IMG/VR virus record: IMGVR_UViG_3300027749_000149
Span: 1 to 52,184 of that record
Direction: 5' to 3' (one strand)
From: a virus
DNA length: 52,184 nt
Shown in pieces: positions 16,839 to 43,635 of this stretch. The position numbers and the translations under genes were made by a program. The notes beneath the pieces were generated by a model. That model did not search any database. It saw only the letters and a list, made by a program, of their open reading frames with translations, and was not told where the DNA came from. Positions within the stretch are counted from its first letter, which is position 1, and each line of letters opens with the position of its first letter.

Positions 16839-16861
16839 CCTATTTATGTCGCCATGACGCC
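16839..16861 (-). promoter_or_regulatory. Putative phage RNA-polymerase promoter, copy 1
   Basis: On the minus strand this 23-base block contains GTCATGGCGACATAAATAGG. Twenty-three bases are identical to copy 2 at 29129-29155, and GTGGCGACATAAATA is shared by copy 3 with one change. It ends in ATAGG, like the initiation end of T7-type promoters, and lies 15 bases before the 190-aa gene. It also carries the TAA stop of the upstream gene. Confidence 0.65.
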
Positions 16862-17278
16862 GCTTTGTCCCTCGGCGTTCTTGCATGCCATCAAGATCAT
16901 GGACTTGGCCCACGTCCGATTGAAAGCTAGGTTTGCGAACACGCCTCTTTTTCTAGCTTCTTCCTCTATCCAATTGATCACAGTTTCGATGTTGTCTCGA
17001 ACCCATTGTGATCCAAGCTGATCCATTTTGGCGGCGTGGGCATTGCACTCGCAGTCCCCCTTGGGAACGATCCTGAGCCACGCGAACATCTTCTTTAGCT
17101 CTGTTCCCGGACCTGCTGGCAGAGTCGCTTCTTCTCGCTTGCGTGGGTATGCGTAGTGAGTCTCATCGACCGTGATCATTTCTCCGTCTCTGGAGACGAT
17201 GCACATCTCTACTTCGTCCCAGGTGTAGCCGCGCTCGGTGAGCCTGGCCTCAAACTGAGAGACTGGTCCTGTGATCAC
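16844..17278 (-). CDS. Conserved-type phage protein with DCECN motif, 144 aa
   Basis: The GTG at 17278 is chosen because it overlaps the upstream stop as GTGA and has an AGGTG site upstream; the open frame reaches 17329. The product begins MITGPVSQFEARLTERGY. Its second half (GDCECNAHAAKMDQLG, then ETVINWIEEEARKRGV and KSMILMACKNA) resembles a pattern I remember from Planctomycete genomes and their phages, with Cys-x-Cys, KMD and a WxxEEAxxRG helix. The function is unknown. Its stop codon lies within the putative promoter of the next unit. Confidence 0.75.
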   Translation of the reverse strand: MITGPVSQFEARLTERGYTWDEVEMCIVSRDGEMITVDETHYAYPRKREEATLPAGPGTELKKMFAWLRIVPKGDCECNAHAAKMDQLGSQWVRDNIETVINWIEEEARKRGVFANLAFNRTWAKSMILMACKNAEGQSGVMAT

Positions 17279-17832
17279 GGAAACACCTGCGCTGGGCAGC
17301 CTCCAAAGACAACGTCGTTCGGATAGCACCTGCCGTCACCGCACGCGATCCCGTTGACGGCTGTGCCGGACTTGTAGGTCAGCGTCTGGCTTCTTGTCAT
17401 GCCGCCGCCGATGTAGGTCGCCATCTCCTGGGACCCAAGACGGCAACTGTCAGCCGGGTCAGTACCGGCCATGGTCAAGGACATTGTTGGGTAGTAGATG
17501 CGGCACATGGTGACGCCGACTCCAGAGAGATAGCTCTTGACGTAAGTTCCGGTCAAGCAGACACCACCCCTTTGGTCGATGTCGAAGTAGCAAAACGTCG
17601 GGCAACCGATCTGGCACGCTGCCTGGCACTCGGCCTGAGTGGCGTACCCACCGGCGTTGGCCTGGAGAGAGCAGACCCCCGTAACGCGATCGCAGACCCA
17701 CAATTGCGGTGGAGGTGGCGGCGGGGGTAAGCAGCACTCGCATGGCGGGGCCGGGTTCAGGTCGATGGCTGATCGAGTCAGCTTGCCTCCCTTCCTGAGC
17801 AGCTTGCTCTTTCGCCTCACCAGCTTGGCCAT
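17275..17832 (-). CDS. Cysteine-rich tail-region protein, 185 aa
   Basis: The N-terminus is strongly basic (MAKLVRRKSKLLRKGGKL), then comes a CECCLPPPPPPP stretch and a disulfide-rich domain with repeated short Cys motifs (CDRVTGVCSL, QAECQAACQIGC, CFYFD-like). The pattern of CxxxxGxC followed by T-x-AECQxxC is one I recall in phage tail or virion proteins. It may be a small structural protein exposed on the particle, though paired cysteines are unusual for a cytoplasm-assembled virion. It lies directly downstream of the collagen-like protein. Confidence 0.7.
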   Translation of the reverse strand: MAKLVRRKSKLLRKGGKLTRSAIDLNPAPPCECCLPPPPPPPQLWVCDRVTGVCSLQANAGGYATQAECQAACQIGCPTFCYFDIDQRGGVCLTGTYVKSYLSGVGVTMCRIYYPTMSLTMAGTDPADSCRLGSQEMATYIGGGMTRSQTLTYKSGTAVNGIACGDGRCYPNDVVFGGCPAQVFP

Positions 17833-17834
17833 GG

Positions 17835-18482
17835 TCAGGACTCGCAGTCAGTGGTGTTGCTCAGGTCTTTCTCGATAGCTTTGATCCGCTTCTCAAGGTC
17901 CTTGATCTTGACGATGTCTGGTCGCCATTCGAGCAAAATGCTGCAAATGTCCTGGCCTTTGAGCTCTTTAAGAGACTCACGATTGCAGCACTTCGGGCAC
18001 CCGCCGGGGTCTCCGCCTGTCACCAGACGAATGCAGTCGTCCATCTTCTTGCGGAACCAAGAGCAGTTGAGCCGCTCAAGGATTCTTACCTCGAAGCTGG
18101 CAAATGCCGCCTCAATCGCAGAGGAGATCATTGACTCGATCAGGTCCTTGATGGAGTCCCAGTCGATGTCGCCAGGGGTTCCCGGAATGCCCGGAATGCC
18201 GTCCTTGCCGTCGGTGCCGATGCCGTTGTATCCCGGCAGCCCGTCCTTCCCTGCCCTCCCAGCGGCCCCGTCCCGGGAGTTGGCTTCCTTCGCTTTGTTG
18301 GCATTGAAGAAGTTGGGATTGTTGGCTGTCGTGGAGTCGTAGGACCGAGGCCCTTGGCTTGTCGGCGCCGGGGTGTTGGACATGGACAGAAGCCGCTGGG
18401 CGATATCCAGGCTGTGACCGGCCGGGATGCCCGCTTGCGTGAACAGGCCAGCAATTTGCTGTGCAGAGACGTTGTTGCTCAT
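17835..18482 (-). CDS. Collagen-like tail-region protein, 215 aa
   Basis: Residues about 70-105 form Gly-X-Y repeats (GAAGRAGKDGLPG and DGKDGIPGIPGTPGD), typical of trimeric phage fibre segments. The part after the repeats is predicted helical, with Cys pairs (CPKCCNRES), and ends in a coiled-coil-like stretch (IKDLEKRIKAIEKDLS). The N-terminal 60 residues could anchor it to the tail. The ATG overlaps the stop of the 1010-aa gene (ATGA), so it is probably an appendage of the nozzle protein. Confidence 0.7.
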   Translation of the reverse strand: MSNNVSAQQIAGLFTQAGIPAGHSLDIAQRLLSMSNTPAPTSQGPRSYDSTTANNPNFFNANKAKEANSRDGAAGRAGKDGLPGYNGIGTDGKDGIPGIPGTPGDIDWDSIKDLIESMISSAIEAAFASFEVRILERLNCSWFRKKMDDCIRLVTGGDPGGCPKCCNRESLKELKGQDICSILLEWRPDIVKIKDLEKRIKAIEKDLSNTTDCES

Positions 18483-21400: not shown

Positions 21401-21511
21401 GAGCTGACCGGGGATCAGCGACATGACATTGAACTGCTCGGTGGCTGCACCGGGAGGGAGTTTGTAGGCGCTGGCAGCCTGGTACAGGCCAAGGAAGTTG
21501 GAGATTTTCAT
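18479..21511 (-). CDS. Tail tube / nozzle protein, 1010 aa
   Basis: The N-terminus (NFLGLYQAASAYKLPPGA, then LIPGQLTVRGGMKT) matches the start seen in tail tubular B or nozzle proteins of short-tailed phages, where a PxGxxTxxxN element is followed by PGxLTVRxG. The rest is beta-rich, with several Cys-containing loops. It should form the hexameric distal tube below the adaptor. Its position next to the adaptor gene, with a 4-base overlap (ATGA), supports this. It is longer than the roughly 800-residue T7 protein, with added domains. Confidence 0.75.
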   Translation of the reverse strand: MKISNFLGLYQAASAYKLPPGAATEQFNVMSLIPGQLTVRGGMKTILSVANKLLEMWGLSVGSGSTDTVMAFDDAGNILEITNLVGTEATVSQKRTALRPEFPVSFCQGRRGEVYIYQGHGNQGLVRSRDGSLRPVGLAAPATKPVIAIDSSPSFYVARIDLTDVGNGYHLPPSVYIGPPPGQSGALVSSTAGGGSPKAIDLTPLSSIFLIDSPIDPVVVGGRQAKAIARIGNAQISEVEVTDGGTGYTSTACVQFRDQPGLAVTGTGAAAALKLKKGFAAGDPDTGAIFWEIFEYPLYYWLCLSEYTREGNGVIVPATGGKGGGAKVIFMFPDAFWGKFKCYPAGDGTDLANYTITAQVYDFGSGYEPGDEIVATLHTASGFMAGYLNGPNCNTTATCQLRARGYCISDPRCPDKLTISQLNTYKQRQIDPLPANAGKGYMTPPVFTTEDGDTINTEVDCYGRITKLLLEQPNKTYLFAPKLLNTEGDVGGARGLAIMRATLRGKYQCYYRWVNAGVSKDAGGPVLSSLSPVNEVNCGDHAAKLTWRIPDPKPEWATGAELWRSTSNQAITLFRVTTLLDATLPFEDTLSDYDLTDVNRDGFLALPILLDDGSLNANRFGVASTDFSVGIVFQDRTLLAVDTTGKRPNTIMYSEADEPESMPETNELVLQTNVRDTDYITSMIPYAGAVLVMQARHCNRLNWVNNPAMNATTSLVAYRGCLNQRCWDIYMGEAYVFDDFGLYKINEHGHTESLFDALDTMVRTNTDSSLPTIDFSKRKWFFLRADRNYSVIRIHVCFTGDEGEFPTRQIVYDPDTKTSWLEGYPSQFFSATEIRGADGQITQITASVGKLSAKPGVVQFGQGLTDDGTPVSWSWKSGNFAFITDETAKNGDQQNSRTVSVIHRTTLSKCMLYLQLFYNNSTTPRKNVAGRDRGVGFIADQTQPQSYVNLEINPHQEGDSNGVARAVFAGRTIRDFSGSDAHVAVKLFGQQDDSGPVILHGIEVMGVEGE

Positions 21512-22563: not shown

Positions 22564-22566
22564 GGA

Positions 22567-24900
22567 TCACCCCGTGTAGCAGATGTTGTTGACAAACGGG
22601 CTGACGCGATAGTTCGTCGTCACCTGAGAGCCAGCCGCGACGAACTTATTGGCGCCGTAGGCCAGACCGTTCCATGCCGGAACCGCATTAGACTGGATCG
22701 GCATAGCTGTGCTGCGGATGGTCCATGTCACGCCGTTTGCGCTTGTGATGCAGGTAGCCTGCCCGTCCGTCGCCATGAAGAGACTGTTTCCGTAGGTGCA
22801 CCCCCTCCATGACGCCGTGGTGCCGATGGTCTGGGCGGTCCAGGCCGTACCGTTTGTTGAGGTGTAGGCAGTTCCTCCTCCGCATGGGACCAAGACGTAG
22901 AGCGATCCGCTGTAGGCGACCTCAAACGGGGCCGCTGCGGCGGTGCCGAAGTAGAAGTCGGCTCCGGCCAGCGTAGCCCTCGTCCAGACAGCGCCGTCGG
23001 TCGAGCTGTAGAGGTACCCGTCAACGAGCCGACCAAACCACCGTCCGCCGGAGTACCGGACTTCTGCGTTGTTCCACACGGTGTTGTTGGTAGTGCCGGA
23101 AATGCTCGTGGAGATAGCGGAAAGCTGACCGTTGAAATACTGCCACAAGGCACCCGAGGGAGCCGAGACGGCGCCTGCCCATCCAGCGTCCGACGGCTTC
23201 GCAGTGATGAGGAAGCGGTTCACCCCGAAATCATATGACTGCGCCTCTGAAAATCCAGGAGCCCCGGCAGTCCACGACGGAGCGGCCACACCCCAGGTGA
23301 TACCGTTGCTGGAGCTGCTGACCGACATCGATGCCCTGCCGAGGACGTAGCAGTCGTTGATGGCGAAAAACAGGCCGCCGCCACGAGCAATCCGGCTGAA
23401 CCGAGACGACACTGGGACTGGTGCCGGGCATGCCTGCCAGGCAACACCGTCCACTGAGTACGCATACCCGGTCGTGAACAGGCCCCCAGCAATGTCGCCA
23501 TCCGGGGCGTAGCTCAGGGCACCGAGCCTGCTGTATCCAGAGGTGTTCCATGGGTAATCGACGGTCCCGGAGGCGAGCTTCCAGGACGATCCGTTGACCG
23601 TTGGAGCGGACCCAACAGTGAGGGTGGCGATCTGGCTGTAGACCGTGCCCACGGCTGTGGTCGTGGCTGACAGGCGGTACTTGGCGCCGTTGTCTCCCGA
23701 GGAGACCGTGACCGTGAGCGTGGTCGCGTTTGCCCCGGAGATAGCTGCCCAGGTAGAGCCACCGGCAGCAAACTTTTGCCAGGCGTAGTTGATGGGGCTC
23801 TCTGTGGACTGAGCAATGGCAGTGAACGTGACAGACAGACCTGCGGTGGTTGTGGTGTCTGAGGGGTTGGTCGTGAACACTGTGGACTGCTGCGTTGCTG
23901 CGGCACTGGGGAGGACCAGATTCAGCGTCCAGGTTGGTGCCGTGCCAGTGATCGAGGCAGAGGCCACGGCTCCGGTGGTGACCGAGCCAATGGTCAGTGT
24001 TGGGGTCGGGCCAGCGGGACCTTGGCTTCCGGCCACACCCTGGATTCCCTGTGAGCCTTGTGGGCCAGTCGGTCCCTGGACTCCAGCCGCACCGGCAGCT
24101 CCAGCCGCGCCGACTGGGCCACGCATCTGGCCGAAATTGAGCCAGCCGTTTGCCTGAGTCGTGCTGGCCGTGCTGCCCCCGACGTAGACAAACCCGTCGC
24201 CCACCAACGTGGCAGATGGGGTGCCGGTAGGCAGGGTCGATCCCGAGAAAATCCAGATGTCCCCCACTGCCATTCCCGTCGAAACAGGCGGCCATGTGGT
24301 GGTGAAAGTGCCTTTGACCACACCGGCCCCACCTCGATCGCCTTGCGGACCCTGTGCCCCAGTCGGGCCAGCCACTCCCTGAGGGCCAGCCGCACCGGCA
24401 CTTCCGGTAGCACCAACAGGCAGGACGAGGTTCAGGACTTGGTTGGGAGCAGTGCCCGAGAACGTAGCTGACGGCGTGCTGCTAGATGTGACCGTGCCGA
24501 TCGTGAGGCTGGTGGCCGCTCCGGCACTTCCGGCGTCACCCTTTGGCAGCACCAGATTGAGGATCGGGTTCTGTGGCGTACCGCTGATCGAAGCGCTTGG
24601 GGCGGTCCCCTGCGAGACAGATCCGATGGCCATCGTGGCGGCACTGCCAGTCGGGCCAGCGGGACCGGCAGGGCCAGCGACACCGGCAGGCCCGGAGGAC
24701 CCCTGCGGGCCTGCAACACCGGGCAGTCCACGGTCTGATCGGTAGGCCAGGCTGTTCCAGGTGGTTGTCCCGTCGCCCAACTTGAATCGTCCGGTGTCGG
24801 TCTCAACCCCCAGCTCGGCAGCACCGAGGATCGAGTTTGCGGCGGCCCACTCTAGGGCTGTGCCTCGCCGCATCAAGATTTGCTGGTAGATCGTTGGCAT
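22567..24900 (-). CDS. Collagen-containing tail fibre, 777 aa
   Basis: The first 55 residues (LMRRGTALEWAAANSIL, ELGVETDTGRFKLGDG, then TTTWNSLAY) are the N-terminal anchor domain known from Mtd-like and other fibre proteins. Several collagen-like Gly-X-Y blocks follow (about 58-95, 160-190 and 260-300). An immunoglobulin-like domain lies at about 340-425 (TNPSDTTTTAGLSVTFTAIA). The C-terminal 330 residues have repeated aromatic Gly blades such as YSSTDGAVWTR and TSTNGTAWTAQ, as in beta-propeller proteins. It is probably a trimeric host-recognition fibre. AAAGGAG precedes the ATG. Confidence 0.8.
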   Translation of the reverse strand: MPTIYQQILMRRGTALEWAAANSILGAAELGVETDTGRFKLGDGTTTWNSLAYRSDRGLPGVAGPQGSSGPAGVAGPAGPAGPTGSAATMAIGSVSQGTAPSASISGTPQNPILNLVLPKGDAGSAGAATSLTIGTVTSSSTPSATFSGTAPNQVLNLVLPVGATGSAGAAGPQGVAGPTGAQGPQGDRGGAGVVKGTFTTTWPPVSTGMAVGDIWIFSGSTLPTGTPSATLVGDGFVYVGGSTASTTQANGWLNFGQMRGPVGAAGAAGAAGVQGPTGPQGSQGIQGVAGSQGPAGPTPTLTIGSVTTGAVASASITGTAPTWTLNLVLPSAAATQQSTVFTTNPSDTTTTAGLSVTFTAIAQSTESPINYAWQKFAAGGSTWAAISGANATTLTVTVSSGDNGAKYRLSATTTAVGTVYSQIATLTVGSAPTVNGSSWKLASGTVDYPWNTSGYSRLGALSYAPDGDIAGGLFTTGYAYSVDGVAWQACPAPVPVSSRFSRIARGGGLFFAINDCYVLGRASMSVSSSSNGITWGVAAPSWTAGAPGFSEAQSYDFGVNRFLITAKPSDAGWAGAVSAPSGALWQYFNGQLSAISTSISGTTNNTVWNNAEVRYSGGRWFGRLVDGYLYSSTDGAVWTRATLAGADFYFGTAAAAPFEVAYSGSLYVLVPCGGGTAYTSTNGTAWTAQTIGTTASWRGCTYGNSLFMATDGQATCITSANGVTWTIRSTAMPIQSNAVPAWNGLAYGANKFVAAGSQVTTNYRVSPFVNNICYTG

Positions 24901-24968
24901 GTCATTGCTCCTTTGAAGTATTCATGTGCGGCAGAGGGGAGTGCTGGTCACGCCTCTAACGGCATCGG

Positions 24969-26183: not shown

Positions 26184-26186
26184 TGC

Positions 26187-27879: not shown

Positions 27880-28646
27880 CAGGCCCTCCAGCGGCTAACA
27901 ACAGAGGAGTTCGAGAGCCAGACCTGCCCGCCGTCTGGCTGGAGGACGATGTCCCCGCCGGTTTGCGAGCGAACCCGGTTGGCCGCCGTCGAGGATGCGG
28001 ACTCGTGGGCCAGAGTGATCGTGCCGCCGCCGGTGGCGTTCTCGTTGACGATCAACACTGGCGCCGTAGCCACGATGCCAGTGATCGTGATGTTGCCAGA
28101 GCTGGTCACTCGGACAATGTCGTAGCCCGTGACATCCAGGTTGTTGCTGGAAGTGATGGTCGTGGCAAGGACACGAGGCAGGATCGGATCGCTGCCGTTG
28201 AGCTGGTGATTGGTGGCGTGCGAGGTTGGGGCCCGTGCGTTGGTCAGCCGCGAGTCGCCCGTGACGATGGCGTCGGTGATCCCGTATCCGGTCACGGTGG
28301 TCGGGGTGCCGGTGATCGTCCCCCAGGCCTGGTTGTGGGAGGCCGGGGTGAACGTGGAGGGGACGCCGGACAGGCTGCCATAGGCCACCGCAGGACTGGT
28401 GCCAGCGGTGACGCGACCGTAGACATCTACCGTCACTGAGGTGTAGACGCCCGCCGTCACGCCGCTGGTTGGGAGCTGAGCCACCGGGAGGGTGCCGGTG
28501 GTGAGCTGCGAGGCGTTCGTCATCAGCGACAACAAGGCACTGACCGCGCAACTGAACGTCGCTGAGCCAGCGGCGTTGTCGAACACGATCACGGAGCCCG
28601 ATGTGGGAGTTCCCGCTGTAAACGCTGAGATTGTAGAGTCTGGCAT
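27879..28646 (-). CDS. Tail fibre protein, 255 aa
   Basis: The start MPDSTISAFTAGTPTSGSVI is a common opening of phage fibre proteins. The middle has short repeats (QLTTGTLPVAQLP, AYGSLSGVPSTFTPASHNQ, NARAPTSHATNHQLNGSDPI), the fibre shaft and hinge elements known from other phages. The C-terminal region is beta-rich. It ends one base into the lectin-like gene start. Many SHxxNH/Q motifs may bind metal ions along the trimer axis, as in other fibres. Confidence 0.75.
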   Translation of the reverse strand: MPDSTISAFTAGTPTSGSVIVFDNAAGSATFSCAVSALLSLMTNASQLTTGTLPVAQLPTSGVTAGVYTSVTVDVYGRVTAGTSPAVAYGSLSGVPSTFTPASHNQAWGTITGTPTTVTGYGITDAIVTGDSRLTNARAPTSHATNHQLNGSDPILPRVLATTITSSNNLDVTGYDIVRVTSSGNITITGIVATAPVLIVNENATGGGTITLAHESASSTAANRVRSQTGGDIVLQPDGGQVWLSNSSVVSRWRA

Positions 28647-28649
28647 GGC

Positions 28650-28775
28650 TTACTTCTTGCCGATGATGTAGGTGCCGTCTTGGGCAATAAGCCTGTTCGC
28701 ATTCTGCCCGGTGACGTTGAACGGGGATGTTGGTGTGGTCGGCACACCGGCAGGGGTCATGGTTCCCTTGCTCAT
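28650..28775 (-). CDS. Tiny fibre-region protein, 41 aa
   Basis: The frame begins MSKGTMTPAGVPTTPTSP and ends AQDGTYIIGKK. The ATG overlaps the stop of the upstream 110-aa gene as ATGA, and the next gene begins three bases after its stop. Its size is typical of a small head or tail completion protein. A longer in-frame extension to 28916 is just the shadow of the upstream gene. Confidence 0.6.
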   Translation of the reverse strand: MSKGTMTPAGVPTTPTSPFNVTGQNANRLIAQDGTYIIGKK

Positions 28776-29104
28776 GCTTTCACCACAGCCTGAGCAGTGC
28801 AGGTGCCAGCGTTGATGACGGCGCAGACCTGAACGGCCCCGTAGGCCGCGTCCGGGATTGCGTAGGCCTTGCCCGTAACGACAGGCGTTGTCAGAGCGTT
28901 CCCAGAAGCATCGCACAGGGGCACCGGGGTGCCTCCGTCGTCAGAGCAGACGTGCCAAGTGATCGTCGTCCCGGTGACCAGCGAATTGATGAACAGGAGC
29001 CCACCGGCAGACGCTCGGTACGGAATGCGGTAGGCCGTGGCCGCGGTCGTTCCTACAGTCCCGGCCGGAATCTGGGAGAACGATCGCAAAATCATGCATG
29101 CCAT
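28772..29104 (-). CDS. Small beta-rich virion protein, 110 aa
   Basis: The product begins MACMILRSFSQIPAGTVGTT and is rich in Thr, Ala, Gly and Val, with a few Cys. I cannot name the family, but the composition and place suggest a decoration or fibre-associated protein. It is the first gene after putative phage promoter copy 2, with GAGAGGCC before the ATG, so it would head a second late transcript. Confidence 0.65.
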   Translation of the reverse strand: MACMILRSFSQIPAGTVGTTAATAYRIPYRASAGGLLFINSLVTGTTITWHVCSDDGGTPVPLCDASGNALTTPVVTGKAYAIPDAAYGAVQVCAVINAGTCTAQAVVKA

Positions 29105-29128
29105 GGGTTGGCCTCTCGTGTGGTTCTT

Positions 29129-29155
29129 TCTCCCTATTTATGTCGCCATGACGCC
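29129..29155 (-). promoter_or_regulatory. Putative phage RNA-polymerase promoter, copy 2
   Basis: The minus strand reads GGCGTCATGGCGACATAA then ATAGGGAGA. The block GGCGACATAAATAGGGAGA closely recalls the end of T7-class promoters, where ATAGGGAGA surrounds the start site. It lies in the 62-base gap between two genes and outside any reading frame. Copies occur at 16839-16861 and 43612-43635. Confidence 0.7.
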
Positions 29156-29166
29156 AGATTGACGCA

Positions 29167-29706
29167 CTACCTCTTCTTCTTCCAGGAAGGGGTGTGCTTT
29201 TCGACCACGAGGGCCCTGGCGTCGGATTTCTTCAAGTCCGGGTTCTTGGCCATCGCGGCTTTCGTGAGTCGCGCGATTGCCCGATTGCTGAGGGCTTTGG
29301 GCTCGGGCTTCGGTCGCTCGCTGCCCTCGTGATTGACTATGCCTTGCACCGTTAGGTTTCTGGCCTTAGCAACTTTCAATACGTCGCTCGTGTCGCTGAC
29401 CCAGGCCATCGGGTCCATGTGACCCCGCTTGTCTGCTATTCCTGAGATGTACTGCTTGCCAGAGACGCTGATCCCGACAGCCTGGGCCTCGCGGACGATC
29501 TTGTTCGCTTGGTGGACCGGCATGTCGTTGAGCCAGCTTCCGTCCAGCCTCCCTTCCTGGAACGCGCGGTCCGTTCCCTTGGTGCCAGGGGGCTGCTGGA
29601 GAGCGCACATGATGGCAAACGCCTCCGTCTGGCCATCGAGGATCATGCGTCGATAGTGCAGCTTGACGTGCATCGGCGCGCGGGCAAGCTCGTGCGGGAA
29701 TATCAC
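29167..29706 (-). CDS. Unrecognised protein downstream of portal, 179 aa
   Basis: The start is GTG at 29706, overlapping the portal stop (GTGA) with a CGGAG site upstream. The product begins MIFPHELARAPMHVKLHYRR and has a helical, basic C-terminus (DLKKSDARALVVEKHTPSWK). A middle part (ISGIADKRGHMDPMAWVSD) looks like a conserved core. I know proteins of this size next to portal genes in phages but not their role. It ends just before the putative promoter copy 2. Confidence 0.7.
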   Translation of the reverse strand: MIFPHELARAPMHVKLHYRRMILDGQTEAFAIMCALQQPPGTKGTDRAFQEGRLDGSWLNDMPVHQANKIVREAQAVGISVSGKQYISGIADKRGHMDPMAWVSDTSDVLKVAKARNLTVQGIVNHEGSERPKPEPKALSNRAIARLTKAAMAKNPDLKKSDARALVVEKHTPSWKKKR

Positions 29707-31841
29707 GGGTTGAGCTCCGGTGGAATCTGAGGAGAAGGGGGGCCCCCGCCGCCGCCGTCACCGGGCGGAGGTGGACCGCTCGGGCCAGACGGAGGCAAGC
29801 CCGGGTCCCCGGGAGGCAGCGGCGGGGGAGGAGGTGGAGGTTCCGGCAAGAGGTAGGGCGTCGGGTCAATGTCGAGGCTCTTTGCCCAATCGGATATCAG
29901 GGCGTTCCACACCGTCACCATGCCGGTGGAGGCGAGCTGCTGTGCGATCGGGCCGATGGTCTGCATGGCCATCTGCATCTGCTCGACCTTCCCGGCCTTG
30001 TTGGGCTTGCGGGCGGAGCCTGCTTCGATGCGGTACTGGAACTCTCGGGCGATGGCGTTGATGCCGATCGGGATGATCCTCTTGTCCCAGGCCTCGGCGC
30101 CGAGAGGGCCAATGATTGGGGCCACGTCCTTGCCTTCGAGGAGCCAGCGTGCCGCCAGTGCCTCTCGCCTTGCCAACATGCTCATGGCGTCTTCTAAGAC
30201 GTTTGCCATGTCGTCAGGACGGACGCTGATCTGCTCTGACTTGACCTGGGCTTCAGCAGCACTTCTAAACTGATTTCTGGTCATACCGTAAACTAATTCG
30301 GTAAGACCGACCCGTTTGTCAAACAACTCCATAAGAGCTGTGAGAATCTCCCAGATGTCGCGGTTCACCGACGGCATCGTCAGCACCGAGACAATCTCGT
30401 TGATGTTCCGCCCCATGGTCTCCGAGAGCTCCACCAGCGTGAAGCCGCCCTGCTCGTGCTTGAGAATCTGGTCCTTGAAATCCTGCTCGGCCGCCTTGTT
30501 GACGGCGATGACCGTCTTGCACGACACCATGATCCTGGAGATCAAGAACGAGATGATCCAGTTGATGCACTTCAGTTCTGGAATGCCCGGCTTGATGTGG
30601 CTGATTGGCCAGGAGTATCCGGTCTTGCGGTGGAACTGGAGCGCAACAAACGGCCACCCGTTGTTCTCGGTGTAGAAGGGGATCGGCCACCGGGTTCGAC
30701 CGAACAGCGTTTCCGGCATTCCGGTCTCGGGATCGATCTGCTCAAGAGCCACTGCCTTTGGCGCATTCAACGGAAAATCCACGCCTTCCGCGACCACGAT
30801 GTAGCAGTTGTCACCCAAGGAATCGAATCGATCTCGGAACTCCTTTGGGGACCCCTTGAGGGTGTGGCCGAAGCCGGTCTTGGACCAGATTTTCCAGTAA
30901 ACCACCAGGTCATTCGTCTGGCCGTTCTTCTTCTTGTTTCGATAGCCACGACCACCGATTGCGACCTCGGATTCGTAGCTCTCGATGTGGCCCTTGAGGG
31001 CTTCGTCGTCGAGCTGATACTTCTTCTTCAGGTATCCAATTGGGTGAACGCACCGTCTTGCGCACCAGAGGATATCTTCTTGCTCGTCAGCGTCAGGGTC
31101 CCACTGGATGTTGTCACTGGAGTCGAAGAAGCTGCCGATCACGCTGTAAGGCTCACCCTCGTCGCCTTCGAGATCGATGGATTCCGTCCACCACAAGCCG
31201 AGTCCGGTGACGATCGCCTCATCGACACATTTCCTGGACTGCTCTTTGAGGTTGAGCTCGACGGGCGTGTAGTTCAGGTAGGCCTCCATCAGGCTTGCGA
31301 CCGTTTTTCGGCTGTCCTCTTCCGCGGCTATGGCGTTGGACGCCGCGATGAACTTCTGCATCGGGTCTTCGACCGGCATCCCCGTGTTCGGGTCGATCTG
31401 CGGCATCCCCGTCATGGGGTCAACCGGCGGCGGCGCCGATGGGTCAATGCCGAGCGTGAGCGGGGAGACCACCGGGAACTTCCGGGGAGTCACCGTGCGA
31501 ACTGGGTTGCGGTGGTAGATCACGCTCGCAAAGAGCTTGACTGCCTCAAACACCTTGTTCACCACGACCTTGAACGCTGGCGTGACGTTCTTGGCGATTG
31601 GCGATACGGCGAGCTTGTCCGAATCAGCCCAGAACCAGTCGCCCTGCCCGTCGAAGAAGTTGCGTGCTTCGTGGGCATCGTCGGTGAATATCTGCTTGTG
31701 CTCTTGCGACTTCTTGATCTTTCCCAGCCACGATGTAGCGATGGCGCGAAGGGCATCCTCCATGTCTTTCGCAGACGCCTCTCCCTCCATGCCTTCGGCA
31801 GGGTTGTCGCTTTGGAGTCGGAGGTCTTCTTCGAGGCTCAT
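29703..31841 (-). CDS. Portal protein, 712 aa
   Basis: It has the size and layout of a short-tailed phage portal. The helical start (DALRAIATSWLGKIKKSQ) is followed by a wing region with FDGQGDWFWAD, a stem (VIYHRNPVRTVTP), and a clip and crown made of helical segments (WIISFLISRIMVSCKT, ITALMELFDKRVGLTEL). The YGMTRNQFRSAAEAQVKSEQ element resembles portal proteins of related phages. The C-terminal 50 residues are a Pro/Gly tract. It forms the dodecameric ring through which DNA enters. AGGGG precedes the ATG, and the gene lies between the terminase and fibre genes. Confidence 0.85.
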   Translation of the reverse strand: MSLEEDLRLQSDNPAEGMEGEASAKDMEDALRAIATSWLGKIKKSQEHKQIFTDDAHEARNFFDGQGDWFWADSDKLAVSPIAKNVTPAFKVVVNKVFEAVKLFASVIYHRNPVRTVTPRKFPVVSPLTLGIDPSAPPPVDPMTGMPQIDPNTGMPVEDPMQKFIAASNAIAAEEDSRKTVASLMEAYLNYTPVELNLKEQSRKCVDEAIVTGLGLWWTESIDLEGDEGEPYSVIGSFFDSSDNIQWDPDADEQEDILWCARRCVHPIGYLKKKYQLDDEALKGHIESYESEVAIGGRGYRNKKKNGQTNDLVVYWKIWSKTGFGHTLKGSPKEFRDRFDSLGDNCYIVVAEGVDFPLNAPKAVALEQIDPETGMPETLFGRTRWPIPFYTENNGWPFVALQFHRKTGYSWPISHIKPGIPELKCINWIISFLISRIMVSCKTVIAVNKAAEQDFKDQILKHEQGGFTLVELSETMGRNINEIVSVLTMPSVNRDIWEILTALMELFDKRVGLTELVYGMTRNQFRSAAEAQVKSEQISVRPDDMANVLEDAMSMLARREALAARWLLEGKDVAPIIGPLGAEAWDKRIIPIGINAIAREFQYRIEAGSARKPNKAGKVEQMQMAMQTIGPIAQQLASTGMVTVWNALISDWAKSLDIDPTPYLLPEPPPPPPPLPPGDPGLPPSGPSGPPPPGDGGGGGPPSPQIPPELNP

Positions 31842-32350: not shown

Positions 32351-34045
32351 TCACGCCACCCAGGACTTGGTATATGAATTAGGAGTAAGGTACACGGACT
32401 CGTTCACGTTCTTAGCTTCGTCTCTTTGCTTCTTCCATGCGTATCCCCACCATTCGTCTTTCTGGACGACCGGGACGTGGTATCGCGGTTCGTAAGCGCA
32501 GAGGTAGCGAAGACAGTCCACGAGGTGGAAGTCTCCTCGCTTGTTTGGCTCGTCCTTCACGACAGTTTGAGTGCCGACGTGCTCGACCTTTTTCTTGTAC
32601 CTCTTCATCTCGTTTTCGAGATTTGGCATAGCGCCGCGCAGGACCCTGAGCCTGGGAGTCCCGTCTGGTCGAATGTGGAGAGCGGTGCGAACCGAATGCA
32701 GTCCGGCCTGAATGTTGTCCACGCCGGGGATGAAGCTGGAGCCCGTGGCCTGGGAGCGAACGCCAAGGCTGGCAAGCTGCTCGGTGTACTGGTCCTGCGG
32801 GCTTCGGCCAGACCCGATGTCCGTGAGCCGACCTCCGTGCGAATCGATGAGGAAGGCGTAGAACTGCGTGCCTTGGGTCTTCTTCAGCATTTCCTGAGCG
32901 AAGATCACCGCATCGCAATTGCGGATGTAGAGCTCGTCATAGAGCAGGATCATCGTTCCTTCAGGCGGCACTGCGGCGAACGTGACCGCGGTGACCGAGT
33001 GCCCCGGATCGATCGAGGCGTACCGGCACCACTCCGCCGGAACCTGGCCTCCCGGAAGGGAGGACTGATCGTAACCGTGGATCGACATGCTGAAGTTCGG
33101 GTAGACCTTGATCGAGTCGATGTTGAACTCGCCCTCGGATCGTTGACGGAGCACGTTCTCACCGGCTGCCGACCAACGCTCCAGCATCTTCCTCTTCTCG
33201 TCCTCGGAGATGTGCGGGTTGTCCATGAAGCGAAGGATGTATCGCTTGATGTCTTTGTTGCCCGTCTCCATCGCCTTCTCAGCCCGCTCGTTGAGGCTCA
33301 TCAGCGCGTCATTCTTCGAGTGCGGCATGGCGGACCACGCGAAGTTCCCCGCGAGGTCAGGGAGGCGGGCCTGCATCTCAAGGACCCAGTCCTCGTTCTC
33401 GATGTCCTCATCGATGTGGACTCGATTCGCCTTGAAGCCCTGCTGCGGCTTGGCTTCGCTGGAGAAGAAGTGAATCGTCCAGCCGTTGACCAGCTCGCAG
33501 ACGTTGAGATAGTTGGCGGACTTCAGGAGCCACGACATGCTCTTGATGAGTCGCGGCGGAATCAGGGGCGGGGCTGGCTTCGTTTCCTTCTCCCGACCGG
33601 CATCGGCCACGGGGTCAAACGCCCGCCAGTGTCCGGTCGCCTTGTCCCGGATCATCTTGAATGCGCCTGCCTTGAAGAGCATCGGGACGACTGTCAGGCC
33701 GATGTGCTTCCATCCGGCGCCGATGATGACGAGGACCCCGTTTTCCGTGGGGTACTTTCCAGGGACGGGGTGGGTTCCTGTTACAGCCCATGCGTCCTCG
33801 ATAAACGTGCAGAGGGACTTGCCAGATCGATTGCCGCCGACCACGAGGATTTCACTCGCCGGGTCCTGGTGATACTCCCACTGCAACGCCGATGGACGGT
33901 ACATCTTGAGGGCTTCCGCCCGCCGAGAGGAAAGCTCGCTCTGCAAGCTCCTGAGTTCGTCTATCTGAAAGGTTGATAGGGAACTGACCAAAGGGAGCGG
34001 CTGAGGACCCGGCTGGGGCTGGGGCTGGGATTTGGGAGACAACAT
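32351..34045 (-). CDS. terL: Terminase large subunit, 564 aa
   Basis: It has the ATPase and nuclease halves of a TerL. Walker A GGNRSGKS is at residues 70-77, and HIDEDIENEDW carries Walker B with adjacent acidic residues. The C-terminal nuclease has SIDPGHS, LIDSHGGR and DCLRYLCAY acidic motifs. It packages and cuts phage DNA. The ATG at 34045 is chosen for GAGGG eight bases upstream. It overlaps the preceding gene by 194 bases, but the segment FQIDELRSLQSELSSRRAEA within the overlap looks like a normal TerL front. Confidence 0.9.
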   Translation of the reverse strand: MLSPKSQPQPQPGPQPLPLVSSLSTFQIDELRSLQSELSSRRAEALKMYRPSALQWEYHQDPASEILVVGGNRSGKSLCTFIEDAWAVTGTHPVPGKYPTENGVLVIIGAGWKHIGLTVVPMLFKAGAFKMIRDKATGHWRAFDPVADAGREKETKPAPPLIPPRLIKSMSWLLKSANYLNVCELVNGWTIHFFSSEAKPQQGFKANRVHIDEDIENEDWVLEMQARLPDLAGNFAWSAMPHSKNDALMSLNERAEKAMETGNKDIKRYILRFMDNPHISEDEKRKMLERWSAAGENVLRQRSEGEFNIDSIKVYPNFSMSIHGYDQSSLPGGQVPAEWCRYASIDPGHSVTAVTFAAVPPEGTMILLYDELYIRNCDAVIFAQEMLKKTQGTQFYAFLIDSHGGRLTDIGSGRSPQDQYTEQLASLGVRSQATGSSFIPGVDNIQAGLHSVRTALHIRPDGTPRLRVLRGAMPNLENEMKRYKKKVEHVGTQTVVKDEPNKRGDFHLVDCLRYLCAYEPRYHVPVVQKDEWWGYAWKKQRDEAKNVNESVYLTPNSYTKSWVA

Positions 34046-34550: not shown

Positions 34551-34554
34551 GGAT

Positions 34555-35750: not shown

Positions 35751-35757
35751 GTCTTCC

Positions 35758-37931: not shown

Positions 37932-37956
37932 CGGCTGTCTCCTCGTGTCGCTTCAG

Positions 37957-38029
37957 TGGGGGCGGCCGGACTCGAACCGGCGGCCTCCTGGTTATGAGCC
38001 AGGTGAGCTACCAACTGCTCCACGCCCCG
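37957..38029 (-). tRNA. tRNA-Met (CAT anticodon), initiator-like
   Basis: A complete 73-base cloverleaf lies in the 104-base gap between genes. The acceptor arm is CGGGGCG with CGCCCCC. The D-arm is GGAGCAGTTGGTAGCTC, matching bacterial initiator tRNA closely. The anticodon stem is CCTGG/CCAGG around CTCATAA, and the T-arm is GCCGG-TTCGAGT-CCGGC. The first acceptor pair is C-C, unpaired as in initiator tRNAs, which have C1-A72. The three-GC anticodon stem of true initiators is only partial (GG/CC). No CCA is encoded. Confidence 0.9.
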
Positions 38030-38035
38030 CCAGAA

Positions 38036-38596
38036 TCAGGTTGCCGTCGGGATGTGTGCGCTGTTGGCCGTTCCGCCGACGATGATCCTCACCAGGCTGT
38101 TCGCTGCGGTGGCGATGGTCTCGCCCAAGCCGATGCCAGCGATGGCGGCCCCGGACGTGCCGACTGCCATCTTCGTCCCGACGCTGGGAGTGGCCGCGGT
38201 GGACACCGAAGTCGGGCCCTGGATGACACCCCAGAAAACATCCTTGATCGCAACGCTCCCGGACGTGCCGTCGGGAAGCGTAGACGGAAGGTACTCGTCC
38301 ACCACAGCCACCTGGAAGTCGGTGGTCACGGCGAGCGAGAGGGCGTCAGTGGTGCGGAACTTCACCAACTGGCCCTTGGTGAGCGCGGCGCCCGTGTTGT
38401 TCCGCAGTGCGATGCAGCGGACGTACCGCGTCGGGAAGTTGACGATCCCGACCGGATAGGTGGCAGGGTTCTGGTCCAGGAAGACCTTCTCGAACCCGGC
38501 CGTTCCCACTCCGAAGGTCGCGTCGGAGAGGTTGACGATTCCGCCGCCAAGGGTCTGGCCTCGCCCGAACTGTGGGTCTGCTGTGGTCGTGGGCAT
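38036..38596 (-). CDS. Capsid decoration protein, 186 aa
   Basis: The product begins MPTTTADPQFGRGQTLGGGI and is beta-rich, with VRCIALRNNTGAALTKGQLV, the type of sequence seen in phage head decoration proteins. The repeated VGTKMAVGTSGAAIAGIG end is also typical of a small jellyroll. It lies directly downstream of the major capsid gene, the usual order. GAGGTAG precedes the ATG at a slightly long spacing. Confidence 0.7.
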   Translation of the reverse strand: MPTTTADPQFGRGQTLGGGIVNLSDATFGVGTAGFEKVFLDQNPATYPVGIVNFPTRYVRCIALRNNTGAALTKGQLVKFRTTDALSLAVTTDFQVAVVDEYLPSTLPDGTSGSVAIKDVFWGVIQGPTSVSTAATPSVGTKMAVGTSGAAIAGIGLGETIATAANSLVRIIVGGTANSAHIPTAT

Positions 38597-38655
38597 TGCT
38601 GTTGTCTACCTCGAAGGAATGGATGTGTGGTGAAAACTCTCGGTGGAACCTTGGC

Positions 38656-39783
38656 TCAGGCAATGGCCTTGAGACAGAAGAAGTTCCTGGGGGATCGAAA
38701 CCGGAGGTTGGCCAGGGTGCTCACGACGTACTTGTAGCTCTGGTTGCCCACGTCGTAGACCGGCCCCTCGACCACGAAGAGCGTGTCTTCCATGCACCGG
38801 AGTTCGAGGTTGTCGATCGAGAGCCCGTATCCGCACCCGACCGGCACGCCGTATTCGGTGGAAACATCCACGCCGTCCTGCTGGAAGACATCCTTGAAGC
38901 CATAGCTTCGAAGTCCCTCGTTGTTGTTGGCGAGGATTCTTTCCTTGGAGTCGAGCTTGGTCTTGTAGTCGATGAACATCCGGCGATCCACCAACACCAC
39001 GTCGATCTGGCTTTCCTTGGTGTCGTTGCGCTGAGCCTGGTTGATGCCCTCGCGGACCGCGAGCGAGCAGTTGTCGAACCAGGTGTAGGAGCTGCCACCG
39101 TTCTTGAAGGCGCTGGACGTGTAGTTGATGATGATCGGGGAGTAGAAGTCATACTCCGGGTCGGCCGTACCGTTCGGCCAAGGCACGCCGGGCTGCTGCG
39201 AGCCAGCGATGGCCCCGAGTCCCGTGTTGACGGTGGCGTAGGTGTCGACCGGCCAGCCGTACATGTCAGCCTGATTCGCCGTGGACCGCTTGCTGCCGTC
39301 GGTGATGTTCACCGTGCCGCTATACCCGAGAAACGACTCCATTCCGTGGAACCGCGTCTCGTTACCAACGGCATCGCCGTCGGTGTATATCTCCTTCGAG
39401 AGATACTGCTTGAGGCTCGTGGTGAGCCGGTTCTGCATCTTCGAGGCGACCTGCACGAGGGCCGAAGCACCCGTGTTTTCCTTGAGCTCCTTGCGGTAAA
39501 TCATGTCCGTGGTTTGGTATCCACGGTACGGGAGCTGCGCGTCCACCCAGAGGTTCTGGCGAGCGAAGATGCGGGGCGTTTCGCCGTTGTTGCCGGTCAC
39601 AGGCTGGTTGCGGTACTGCACCTGCCAGTCGATCCCGCGCCCGCCCTGATTCATCAGGACGTTGCCGGACCCTTCCAGCAGCGCGAAGATTTTGAACGAC
39701 CGAAGCATCGCCAGCTCCTCCTGACGGAGGTAGTTGACGGTCGTCGTTCCAATTGTCCGTGCCCAGTCTGTGCTCGAAGGCAT
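38656..39783 (-). CDS. Major capsid protein, 375 aa
   Basis: It is a globular protein of typical length for an HK97-fold coat. The start MPSSTDWARTIGTTTVNYLR is followed by NQPVTGNNGETPRIFARQN, RGYQTTDMIYRKELKENTG, VVLVDRRMFIDYKTKLDSK and GYGLSIDNLELRCMEDTL. The IFARQNLWVDAQLPYRGYQ part resembles coat proteins of related phages. It builds the icosahedral head. Its gene follows the scaffold candidate directly, with AAAGG before the ATG. No obvious N-terminal delta domain is present, which suits a separate scaffold. Confidence 0.85.
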   Translation of the reverse strand: MPSSTDWARTIGTTTVNYLRQEELAMLRSFKIFALLEGSGNVLMNQGGRGIDWQVQYRNQPVTGNNGETPRIFARQNLWVDAQLPYRGYQTTDMIYRKELKENTGASALVQVASKMQNRLTTSLKQYLSKEIYTDGDAVGNETRFHGMESFLGYSGTVNITDGSKRSTANQADMYGWPVDTYATVNTGLGAIAGSQQPGVPWPNGTADPEYDFYSPIIINYTSSAFKNGGSSYTWFDNCSLAVREGINQAQRNDTKESQIDVVLVDRRMFIDYKTKLDSKERILANNNEGLRSYGFKDVFQQDGVDVSTEYGVPVGCGYGLSIDNLELRCMEDTLFVVEGPVYDVGNQSYKYVVSTLANLRFRSPRNFFCLKAIA

Positions 39784-39794
39784 GCTTCAACCTT

Positions 39795-40970
39795 TCAAAG
39801 GAGTCCGCGCTTCGCTGCCGTGTCGAGGAGCATTTGCTCGTAGCTCGCTGGCCTTGAAGCGCGTGGGTCGTTGTTGGTGGTTCCCGCCGATCGATTCGGA
39901 GACCTGGATGCTTCTCGGCGGAGGAAGTCCATGTTGGCTTGTGCTCGGGCTGCTCTTGCTGCGTCCTGGCTCGACGTGTCTTGCTGGGGCGGAGCAGGGG
40001 GAGCAGGGGGGGCGAACTGTTGGGCTTGCTGTGGCTGCCGAAAGAACTCGGGTTGCTGGTCAACTTCCATTCTTGCCGCGTAGTCGCGGAGCAGAAGGTC
40101 GTGTTCCACCTTGTCTCTTGCGTACTGCCATCTCTTCTCTGGGCTTGTGATCCCCATGGATCGCCCTTGCTCGACGTATTTATGTACGGCAATAGCTTCC
40201 GTTGTCACACTTCCGTCTTCGTTGAAGAGCCAGTCCTTGTTTTCGTCGCGGATTTGGTCCACGAACGACTCGTTGTCGCGCTGCGTCATCGTCTGCTGGA
40301 CGATCTCTTGGGCGATCTGCTTGGCTCGCCCTTCGACCATGGGACCCAGGGCTGCCTCCGGGTCTTCGAGGAACTTCCTGGCGAAGTCCTGCTTGAATGC
40401 CATCTGCTCTTCGAGCGACTGCCGGGCGTCGATCGGGGCGTCCGGGGAGATGACCTCGCGTCCCGTCTCGGGATCGCGGACGAGGAACCGCTTGTGCGAG
40501 TCGCGGACCTGCGGGGGATTCCACCAGGGCTTCTTCTCCTCGGCGGGCTTGGCCCCGGGGTGCTGCGCGGCGGCGGGCGGCGCCATGCGTGCCTTCTGCC
40601 ACTCATCGAACTGCGGTTTGTCGGCCAGGTACTTCTGGATGTTCGGGTAGAGCTGCTGGAACTGCGTGAGCTGCTGCGATGCGGCACGCTCCCTGACCGT
40701 CGTCTGGTAGAGGGAGTGAGCGATCTGCTGCTCCGAGAGGTCCCTGAACTGAGGCAGTTGCCGGAAGTTGTTCATCACCTCCCAGTTCGACCGCGCAACT
40801 TGGGCGGCGGCTTGCGGCGACTGGCCCGGGGCGGCTTGCTGCGGAGCCCGCTGCTGAGGGGCAGAAGACTGGGGCGTTGCACCTGAATCAGATGACCCGG
40901 AGTCCTGCGATCCCGAGACATCGACATCCTGATCCACAACGTCTGCCGAACCGTCAGTGGGCATTGCCAT
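39795..40970 (-). CDS. Scaffolding protein, 391 aa
   Basis: The protein is strongly charged and Gln/Pro-rich, with a long disordered start (DQDVDVSGSQDSGSSDSG), a helical middle (LTQFQQLYPNIQKYLADKPQ, DFARKFLEDPEAAL, IAQEIVQQTMTQRDNESFVD) and a Pro/Gln-rich tail with a final helix. This is the typical layout of an internal scaffold. Its place directly upstream of the capsid gene supports the call. AAGGAG lies before the ATG. It is released or digested on head maturation in other phages; the method here is unknown. Confidence 0.75.
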   Translation of the reverse strand: MAMPTDGSADVVDQDVDVSGSQDSGSSDSGATPQSSAPQQRAPQQAAPGQSPQAAAQVARSNWEVMNNFRQLPQFRDLSEQQIAHSLYQTTVRERAASQQLTQFQQLYPNIQKYLADKPQFDEWQKARMAPPAAAQHPGAKPAEEKKPWWNPPQVRDSHKRFLVRDPETGREVISPDAPIDARQSLEEQMAFKQDFARKFLEDPEAALGPMVEGRAKQIAQEIVQQTMTQRDNESFVDQIRDENKDWLFNEDGSVTTEAIAVHKYVEQGRSMGITSPEKRWQYARDKVEHDLLLRDYAARMEVDQQPEFFRQPQQAQQFAPPAPPAPPQQDTSSQDAARAARAQANMDFLRREASRSPNRSAGTTNNDPRASRPASYEQMLLDTAAKRGLL

Positions 40971-41032
40971 GAAAAGTTCTCCTTGGGTTGACGAAGATCA
41001 CAACCTATGGAAGACGATCACGCAATGGTAAT

Positions 41033-42511
41033 TCACATGGGGCCAAAGCCAGACCACTCCCTAAGCAAGGGATGGAGGTCGCTTGTCGGGGTCTTTTTGG
41101 CTGGCGGCATGGTGTTCGCTTTGTAGTTGCGGCGCTGACGCAGTCTGTCGTTCGTTTCTTTCATGTTTGCGTCATACCCATTCATCTGTTCTTTGAACTG
41201 GTCGTCGGGTAGATAGCTTCCTTCAAGGTCAGGCCTGTTCTCTATTCCTGATTTCATCATCTGCCCAGCCGAAGGGATCGCTGGCGACAACGCTGCGCTC
41301 GCCCCGAACGTCAGAGGCAGCGACGTGACTCCTTCCTCGACAATTTCCTTGCCAACTCCCCCGCCAAGTGGAGCGGTCAGGAGGGTGAGCGGGTCGAAGG
41401 GGGCGTCCGAGAGGGCCGAGGCCGTGTTTGATCCCACCCAACTCGGGACCTGACCTGTCTTCGCGCGGTGGTAGTCGTCAAACCCCATGCCCTGCTGCGA
41501 GTCCGAGGCGTCTGCGAGCGCCCCGCCGACAGCCCTGTGCCGCTCGTCCGCGGTCGCAGCGGGCTCGGTGAGCACCGGGGAGATAGCCCGGGACCACTGG
41601 TTGTTGAGCTGGCCCGCCGAAGCTCCCATCTGATCGGCCAGTTCCGATGGCTTGAGCAGGCTCGCCCCGAGGTTGCGGGCGAAGTCATACCCCGTAGCGG
41701 CCAGATGCCCCAGGGCGTTGCTGTTCCTGGAGTTGGTGACCCACTCCGGCTCAGCCGCCGTCGGGTCCTTCATGGTCATGGAGTGCATGAAATGCGACAG
41801 CGGGGACGACGCCGCCCCCACCATCCCGGCGGCGAACTCCGGGTTGTAGAGGGCATCGAACTCCGCCTGCGGCGTCGAGTGGTGTTTGAAGTTCGCAGTC
41901 GCCCAGACCCCGTTGTCGCCGGGGCTGTAGGCGTGCGTGGCGTTCTCGCCGCGGTTGTAGTAGTGCAGGGCGTCTTCGATCGGCCGCCGCGCGGCACCCA
42001 TCCCTGGGTTGGGAGCGAAGTACTGCATCACCGACTTGAGCTCGGCGTCCTTCTCGGCGGCCGAGTCAAGGCTCCGGTCGCGGTTGGCCAACGCTTCGAG
42101 GTATTCGCGGTCGCGCATCCAGGCGTGATTCTGCTGATCGCCCGGGGAGAGCTTGAACTTCTCCGGCTCGCCCTGCTCGGCACGGTCTTCGGGAGTCCAG
42201 CCGGGGCCCGCTTCGCCCCGCCGCATCTGCTCACGCCACTGCGGAATCTTCTTCTTGGGGGTGTTGAAGAGCCAGTTCACGTCGTGCGGCTGCTCGGCAC
42301 GCGGATCACCGGCGCGAGCCAGCTTGATCCAGTCCTCTTGACGCAAGAACGGGCTGTTAGCTGGGAACGGACCCTGGGACTTCCCGTGATAGATGTGGTC
42401 TGCCACTTGATTGAGATGCTCAGGGCTCATGCCCAAGCCAGCTCGCTTCGCTAGGCGACCAACAACGTCACGCAGTTCCGGGAGCCCCTTCGGTTCAGAC
42501 GGCGGGGGCAT
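41033..42511 (-). CDS. Unrecognised late protein, 492 aa
   Basis: The ATG at 42511 has CAGGAG seven bases upstream and overlaps the previous gene by 17 bases. The product starts MPPPSEPKGLPELRDVVGRL, is rich in Pro, Asn and Ala, and has a mixed helical composition. A region (LTLLTAPLGGGVGKEIVEEG, LPLTFGASAALSPAIPSAG) is fairly hydrophobic and glycine-rich. The family is not recognised. It is produced before the scaffold, so it may be an internal head or portal-vertex protein. Confidence 0.65.
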   Translation of the reverse strand: MPPPSEPKGLPELRDVVGRLAKRAGLGMSPEHLNQVADHIYHGKSQGPFPANSPFLRQEDWIKLARAGDPRAEQPHDVNWLFNTPKKKIPQWREQMRRGEAGPGWTPEDRAEQGEPEKFKLSPGDQQNHAWMRDREYLEALANRDRSLDSAAEKDAELKSVMQYFAPNPGMGAARRPIEDALHYYNRGENATHAYSPGDNGVWATANFKHHSTPQAEFDALYNPEFAAGMVGAASSPLSHFMHSMTMKDPTAAEPEWVTNSRNSNALGHLAATGYDFARNLGASLLKPSELADQMGASAGQLNNQWSRAISPVLTEPAATADERHRAVGGALADASDSQQGMGFDDYHRAKTGQVPSWVGSNTASALSDAPFDPLTLLTAPLGGGVGKEIVEEGVTSLPLTFGASAALSPAIPSAGQMMKSGIENRPDLEGSYLPDDQFKEQMNGYDANMKETNDRLRQRRNYKANTMPPAKKTPTSDLHPLLREWSGFGPM

Positions 42512-43595
42512 CAGGCGACTCCTGGTTCGAGGCAATGTGGGGGCCCAAGCTGAGCAGCAAGTCGCGGTCTTTTTTCAGCAGGCCCCTTTGAATCTGGTCC
42601 CAGTAGAACTGGAGCTGGTTCCAGCCTGAGGCAGGCTGACCGGCCCGGGGGCCGTACTTCATGATCGGATCGTCCGGGAACGGAGTAAGGGCACCCGGGA
42701 AGAAGTTCTTCAGGTCGAGATTTGGGGTTCTCTGCACCGGCCGCATCGGGTTCTCAAGCATTCGGTCGAACATGTGGCCCCACTCATCCGGCTCGATCGG
42801 GATTTCCCCGGTGAGGCCGTAGTTGAGCGCCCGAGTCAGGCCCATGTCAGCGGTGATCTCGTTGATGTCGTTCTTGTGGCCAAGCTGGCCATACATCTGC
42901 ATCCGCTGACCGGCCAGTGGATTCTCGCCGGACTGCTTCCAGGCACGATCGATGCTCTTTTCGATCGTGCCCCGCCGACCGTCCGAGGTAAAGGCCATAG
43001 GGTCCCCGTTGTAGAGCTTCGAGTTCAGCCGCGTTCCTGAGAAGAACTTCGACGGAAAGTTCCCGGAGTGAAATGCCTCGTGGCCCAAGACTCCCATGAG
43101 CGGGAACCCAGGCTCTTGCATGTGCATGCCCTGGGGGTTGGCCTCGATGAGGTTCAGCCACGGCATGAATCCGCCGTTGTGGGTCGTGTCTCCGATCACC
43201 GTGTAGAGCGGTTCCTGGAAGTGCATGTCCCGTTCATGGGGAGACATCCCGTCCGAGACCATCGGGTGGGAACCCGCGTCGAGAAGCGACTGCCTGATCG
43301 GGTCCCACTCGTCGCCGTACTGGTCATAGGCGAAGTCATCGAAAGTGGTGCGGGCGATCTTCGCGGCACCCGGGTCACCTGTTCCGCCGTCCTCTTGGAT
43401 CGATGAATAGTCTTCGAGTGGATAGAAACCATTCCCATCTGGCTGCCGGTGCTGTTTGGCATACTCGTAGGCATTGCCGAGCTGAAACCTGCCACTCTGC
43501 ATCGACATGCGGGCGGAAGGCTGCGGAGGGAGCGGAGCGGTTGGAGCACGCACCGGCCGGGACAGCTTCCGGGCAACCTGATTCGGGAACGCCAT
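42495..43595 (-). CDS. Late protein with HExxH metalloprotease motif, 366 aa
   Basis: The ATG at 43595 follows CAGGAG, in the leader of putative promoter copy 3. The first 60 residues are Pro- and Gln-rich. A zinc-protease motif, GVLGHEAFHSGNF, lies at residues 168-180 (His172, Glu173, His176). A later acidic segment, NDINEITADMG, about 65 residues on, could supply the third ligand, as in gluzincin-type enzymes. The protein is the first gene of the late unit. It may cut scaffold or other virion proteins, or the motif may be degenerate; activity is not proven. Confidence 0.65.
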   Translation of the reverse strand: MAFPNQVARKLSRPVRAPTAPLPPQPSARMSMQSGRFQLGNAYEYAKQHRQPDGNGFYPLEDYSSIQEDGGTGDPGAAKIARTTFDDFAYDQYGDEWDPIRQSLLDAGSHPMVSDGMSPHERDMHFQEPLYTVIGDTTHNGGFMPWLNLIEANPQGMHMQEPGFPLMGVLGHEAFHSGNFPSKFFSGTRLNSKLYNGDPMAFTSDGRRGTIEKSIDRAWKQSGENPLAGQRMQMYGQLGHKNDINEITADMGLTRALNYGLTGEIPIEPDEWGHMFDRMLENPMRPVQRTPNLDLKNFFPGALTPFPDDPIMKYGPRAGQPASGWNQLQFYWDQIQRGLLKKDRDLLLSLGPHIASNQESPDAPAV

Positions 43596-43611
43596 GAGGT
43601 GATCTCCTGTT

Positions 43612-43635
43612 CCCGTATTTATGTCGCCACGAAGC
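43612..43635 (-). promoter_or_regulatory. Putative phage RNA-polymerase promoter, copy 3
   Basis: The minus strand reads CGTGGCGACATAAATACGGG, sharing GTGGCGACATAAATA with copies 1 and 2 apart from one base. The start site would be at the GGG, 18 bases upstream of the HExxH gene's ATG. It begins the left-directed late transcription. Confidence 0.65.

Follow-up and report, generated by a model that had tools for sequence, protein, structure and literature searches.

Late promoters read by gp55 of phage T4 consist of a single box, TATAAATA, and depend on a sliding clamp and a co-activator, and MotA of the same phage is an activator that occupies the -35 region. Promoters of the T7 class end near position -17. 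A phage sigma factor that reads bipartite late promoters together with the host core enzyme is likewise a known kind of regulator, exemplified by gp47 of Salmonella phage 7-11. The report on these phages (PMC8948821) describes SaPh711_gp47 as a sigma factor in which region 4 is present and which uses host core RNA polymerase; its late promoters are bipartite (GTAAtg-16-aCTA) and lie upstream of late genes. The same report presents gp36 of phiEco32 as a phage sigma factor that serves middle and late genes with the host core at tAATGTAtA promoters (PMC8948821).

Which of these arrangements does the locus described here resemble? We analysed a stretch of 52,184 bases (the window), the whole of one IMG/VR phage record, which has no end repeats and is therefore likely a fragment. 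Three sites on its minus strand, A, B and C, precede blocks of late genes, and we put the probability at roughly 85% that they are bipartite late promoters of a phage-encoded sigma factor acting on the host RNA polymerase core, judging from sequence comparison. Phage 7-11 is like the family of the window phage in having a phage sigma factor with region 4, bipartite late promoters and a sigma gene deep in a leftward cluster, but unlike it in its boxes (here TGCGWCA and [GT]ACATAAA). The two sigma factors are hardly alike (gp47 against the sigma profile of the family: 13% identity over 52 columns, E=0.006), and the window family is a different, uncultured group of phages. In the same source, phiEco32 shares with the proposed system a phage sigma factor that works with the host core, whereas its promoters have a single element and gp36 is without region 4 homology. 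As for T4, the -10 element of the window, CATAAATA, is one base away from TATAAATA, and region 2 of some family members matches PHROG 234 ('late sigma transcription factor'; E=7e-6 for the relative G003). In contrast to gp55-type promoters, which lack a -35 box, those of the window family have a conserved -35-like box, and a region 4 is present in the sigma factor. A literature search found no work on the sigma factor or promoters of this phage family.

Leftward genes (minus strand) extend from 43.6 kb to the start of the window and comprise major head protein-like, terminase-like, portal-like and tail genes, followed by those for ERF, a PD-(D/E)XK nuclease and a helicase; rightward genes (plus strand) begin at 44.2 kb and include small genes, DUF6744 and an AAA ATPase. 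A terminase scan returned 21 relatives of the window phage, a portal scan 228 in IMG/VR (80 retained) and a head-protein scan 102 (80 retained). Neither portal nor head protein matched any cultured phage, and the terminase is about 24-28% identical to those of cultured phages among the matches listed. A nucleotide search with the first 25 kb of the window gave no match, nor did a scan of genome contigs for portal relatives find any. Two relatives serve as main references, G001 (60,562 bases, end repeat of 127) and the close relative G002 (62,019 bases, end repeat of 87); direct end repeats are present in 8 of 11 relatives. The window is without the stretch of about 8.3 kb that corresponds to G001 6663-14959.

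All three sites carry the extended -10 element GGCGACATAAATA, preceded by a -35-like box at the offset found across the family. At site A the element occupies 43616..43628 and the box, TGCGACA, 43641..43647 (both on the minus strand, as are all features of this paragraph), and orthologous sites exist in G001 and G002. The first gene after it (42495..43595) encodes 366 aa with no family match, and the block contains a major head protein-like gene (38656-39783), a terminase-like gene (32351-33904) and a portal-like gene (29703-31841). Site B, with its element at 29135..29147 and the box TGCGTCA at 29160..29166, is followed by a gene for 110 aa (28772..29104) and then by tail-fibre and structural genes. 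Site C (element 16841..16853; box AGGGACA, 16866..16872), also conserved in G001 and G002, precedes a gene for 190 aa (16252..16824), after which come large proteins of 1314, 480 and 1222 aa; our guess is that these are ejection-type proteins. A degenerate fourth site, TGACCAG...CACATGAATA at 24921..24950, is a tentative candidate 21 nt before the tail-fibre gene 22567-24900, and G001 has a full site in the same place, at 40047, before its tail-fibre gene. A tRNA-Met gene (CAT) lies within the late block at 37956-38029.

The preliminary description of this DNA had reported one 15-base motif in three copies, and three minus-strand copies do exist, at 16841-16855, 29135-29149 and 43616-43630 (copies 1, 2 and 3, at sites C, B and A). 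The exact 15-mer GTGGCGACATAAATA is confined to copy 3; copies 1 and 2 read ATGGCGACATAAATA, with a different first base. The 23 identical bases ascribed to copies 1 and 2 are there (GGCGTCATGGCGACATAAATAGG). Allowing up to three mismatches, the 15-mer matches three times in the window, whereas 100 shuffles averaged 0.40 matches and one of them reached three; the 16-mer CATGGCGACATAAATA occurs three times, a count reached by none of 100 shuffles. Between the end of the motif and the called start codon there are 17, 31 and 21 nt at copies 1, 2 and 3, so that two distances agree with the 15-30 bases given before, and copy 2 falls slightly outside. The leaders that contain the sites are short, and the sites overlap purine-rich stretches used in ribosome binding.

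Sites A, B and C are all kept in G001 and G002, where the flanks have diverged, and more distant relatives have GGACATAAA, TACATAAA or comparable forms in equivalent positions. Across eight genomes, 23 of 38 late-strand copies of ACATAAA lie 10-60 nt upstream of a gene, where 1.6 are expected; of 41 permuted 7-mers, the highest-scoring has 5 such copies. On the other strand of the same genomes there are five copies, none of them upstream of a gene. At portal-anchored loci with enough sequence, ACATAAA follows the portal gene, the place of site B, in 60 of 70 (66 copies in total), against a background of four copies in the 1500 nt that precede the end of the portal gene and none on the other strand; it is absent from the other 10. 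The -10 consensus across the family is [GT]ACATAAA. Among the four most distant genomes, G015 and G018 have, by eye, only CCATAAA-type variants, and G016 and G017 show no clear set of sites. In G018 another repeated motif, approximately GCGCTTGACACGCCC[ATG]TA, stands before three minus-strand genes that start at 12319, 56513 and 59926 and may be that genome's own promoter.

The second box stands at a fixed distance: TGCG(A/T)CA or GGGACA in the window, then 17 or 18 nt, depending on the hexamer boundaries chosen, then CATAAA. The preliminary description had found no -35 element. This was right insofar as a scan with the canonical sigma-70 consensus (window 43300-47000, 28500-29700 and 16300-17300) gave no promoter and no TTGACA-like hexamer, but it overlooked the different upstream box. 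Two boxes at sigma-type spacing upstream of late genes are what a late promoter of a phage sigma factor would display. The key base of the box is a G at -21, present in 83% of 59 non-redundant GACATAAA sites (up to about half of which, by our estimate, are perhaps chance matches), in 87% of 30 non-redundant portal-anchored sites and in 16 of 20 non-redundant sites of the eight-genome set (binomial P=1.2e-5, uncorrected for about 176 choices of column and base); one late site of G003 lacks it. Site B taken alone is confounded, since it coincides with the end of the upstream gene and TGA stops are frequent at -22 to -20; we therefore relied on sites A and C and on the within-genome comparison below. 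A first motif matrix obtained by EM drifted into coding sequence, with GACATCAAG-type codons, and was discarded in favour of anchored counts.

Do the sites of one genome resemble each other more than they resemble those of other genomes? The comparison covered 15 sites in six groups and was made only between different site classes (A against B, for instance), which were assigned from position; two G002 rows of the 20-site set were omitted. Likeness of the -35 box is 59% within genomes versus 34% between them (P=5e-5), and the difference persists in an 18-row version that includes the G003 X, G006 X and fourth G001 sites left aside in the 15-row test (P=0.002). The -10 flanks behave in the same way (68% versus 45%, P=0.002), and the spacer shows a slight excess (38% versus 28%, P=0.04), while sequence far upstream does not differ (29% versus 28%, P=0.48). 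The excess within genomes at both boxes, absent far upstream, argues for one genome-specific factor as their common reader: a single protein that touches every site of a genome at two points should leave such a pattern, although different hosts could give a similar one. The earlier proposal of a promoter family that serves one trans-acting, phage-specific factor before late gene blocks is supported.

The factor itself had been taken for a single-subunit RNA polymerase, and here the proposal is not supported: a search with PF00940 found nothing in 12 records (the window fragment and 11 relatives, eight with end repeats) and recovered the T7 (E=1e-109) and N4 (E=1e-14) enzymes used as controls. 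The lack of such a polymerase, named beforehand as what would refute the proposal, holds as far as the relatives of the window fragment can show. What all 11 relatives do encode is a sigma factor of about 170 aa. The Pfam matches are weak: Sigma70_r2 matches 11 of the 12 records, five over the cut-off, and the sole miss is the window fragment. Region 4 is matched at the sigma gene in six (G001, G006, G014, G016, G017 and G018), two of them over the cut-off; other region 4 matches fall outside that gene. As controls for region 2, 7-11 matches (2.8e-7) and T4 does so weakly (0.004); T7, N4, CRP-1, HTVC115P and Brad, unrelated or remotely related phages, gave none (0/5). The 11 proteins align over both regions, each genome having its own diverged sigma factor, and a search of viral contigs yielded 65 sigma relatives.

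Searched against the PDB, the sigma profile finds the ECF sigma factor RpoE best (E=1.7e-8), then WhiG, FliA, SigK and RpoS. In a model of the G001 protein (171 aa; mean pLDDT 84, pTM 0.48), residues 3-84 match sigma region 2 and residues 105-170 match -35-binding domains, with a linker of low confidence at 88-103; single domains superpose at an rmsd of about 2-4 Å, and the whole-chain rmsd is large, since the placement of the domains is uncertain. The modelled protein, which shows the helices of both domains, has the ECF-type build, two domains with regions 2 and 4 within about 170-200 aa. Its gene lies at G001 12893-13408 (minus strand, like the late genes), past the helicase block and within the 6663-14959 stretch missing from the window; no sigma gene exists in the window itself, and we infer that the window phage's own copy belongs to its missing segment. 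No canonical promoter for the sigma gene was found in G001 12800-17300. A serine recombinase of G001 (12086-13021, plus strand; Resolvase, E=2e-30) suggests a temperate or plasmid-like stage; the end of its gene overlaps the oppositely oriented sigma gene.

The sigma factor of the relatives is the presumed reader of these sites. It would bind the host RNA polymerase core; its region 2 would read and open the extended -10 element (GGCGACATAAATA in the window, [GT]ACATAAA across the family), and its region 4 would hold the box 17-18 nt upstream (TGCGWCA or GGGACA in the window). Transcription would probably begin a few bases beyond the motif, at purines that overlap leader and ribosome binding site, the exact start being predicted from this arrangement. 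From each of the three sites it would proceed leftward, into the blocks of head, tail and ejection genes.

Could the sites instead be read by a sigma factor of the host, housekeeping or alternative, possibly with a phage activator at the -35 region, as MotA is in T4, the phage sigma factor doing something else? We regard this as unlikely, although it is the most probable of the alternatives. The core of the -10 element, CATAAA, agrees with TATAAT in four of six positions, the spacing would suit a bacterial sigma factor, and a small HTH protein is encoded in the early region (G001 10722-11201), though considered as a regulator it gave only weak HTH matches. Against a host factor, no site passes the sigma-70 consensus scan, and from one phage genome to another the boxes change in concert at unrelated sites, each genome having its own diverged sigma factor. 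Far less probable is a binding site for a phage repressor, or another non-promoter signal in the leaders: the location in short leaders and the overlap with ribosome binding sequences would suit it, but the sites are directional, confined to one strand, close to gene starts and made of two boxes at promoter spacing.

Promoters of a T7-like or N4-like single-subunit polymerase are the least probable alternative of all, for although the sites have an AT-rich core followed by GGG, lack a TTGACA hexamer and in copy 2 end in ATAGGGAGA, which resembles a T7 start, that ending becomes ATAGGGAGC in G001 and ATAGGAGGC in G002, GGGAGA is not conserved in either, conservation is bipartite in place of a contiguous block from about -17 to +6 with a fixed GGG start, a T7-class promoter would not be expected to have a conserved box about 30 nt upstream of the start region and 17-18 nt ahead of the -10 core, and neither the window fragment nor, as far as they show, its relatives have the polymerase gene. 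The large proteins after site C, tried as virion polymerases, matched nothing in Pfam, PHROGs or NCBIfam, no other large protein scanned matched a polymerase, and multi-subunit RNA polymerase (PF00623) was likewise found in none of the 12 records.

Under the phage-sigma reading, what looked like a T7-like polymerase system becomes a sigma switch, and looking for a new polymerase in it would be wasted effort. An abundant phage family whose portal and head proteins have no cultured match gains a predicted late regulator together with a promoter consensus. We further consider it rather probable that this large uncultured family carries its own two-domain sigma factors and that, in each genome, both boxes (-35 and -10) of every late promoter have moved together with the sigma factor. 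If so, dozens of sigma/promoter pairs would form a natural series for the recognition code of regions 2 and 4, with a T4-late-like -10 element joined to a -35 box. How sigma factors and their promoters change together could be tested directly on pairs drawn from many genomes.

Some features of the early region and of replication deserve mention. Among the proteins scanned in the window and G001, a subset of the genes, no DNA polymerase family match was obtained, except for a weak match of a fibre-like protein to one PHROG named DNA polymerase; ERF, helicase and nuclease are nevertheless present. A 443-aa early protein of G001 (8907-10238, plus strand) has no Pfam or PHROGs match and has counterparts of similar size in G003 and G006. 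Genes for a MoxR-type AAA ATPase, DUF6744 and a DUF2201 metallopeptidase/VWA protein adjoin in the early region (window 50018-51184 and 49032-49928; G001 6347-8086; all on the plus strand), a row in the window and G001 to which the N4 ATPase gene gp24, followed by gp25, may be a parallel.
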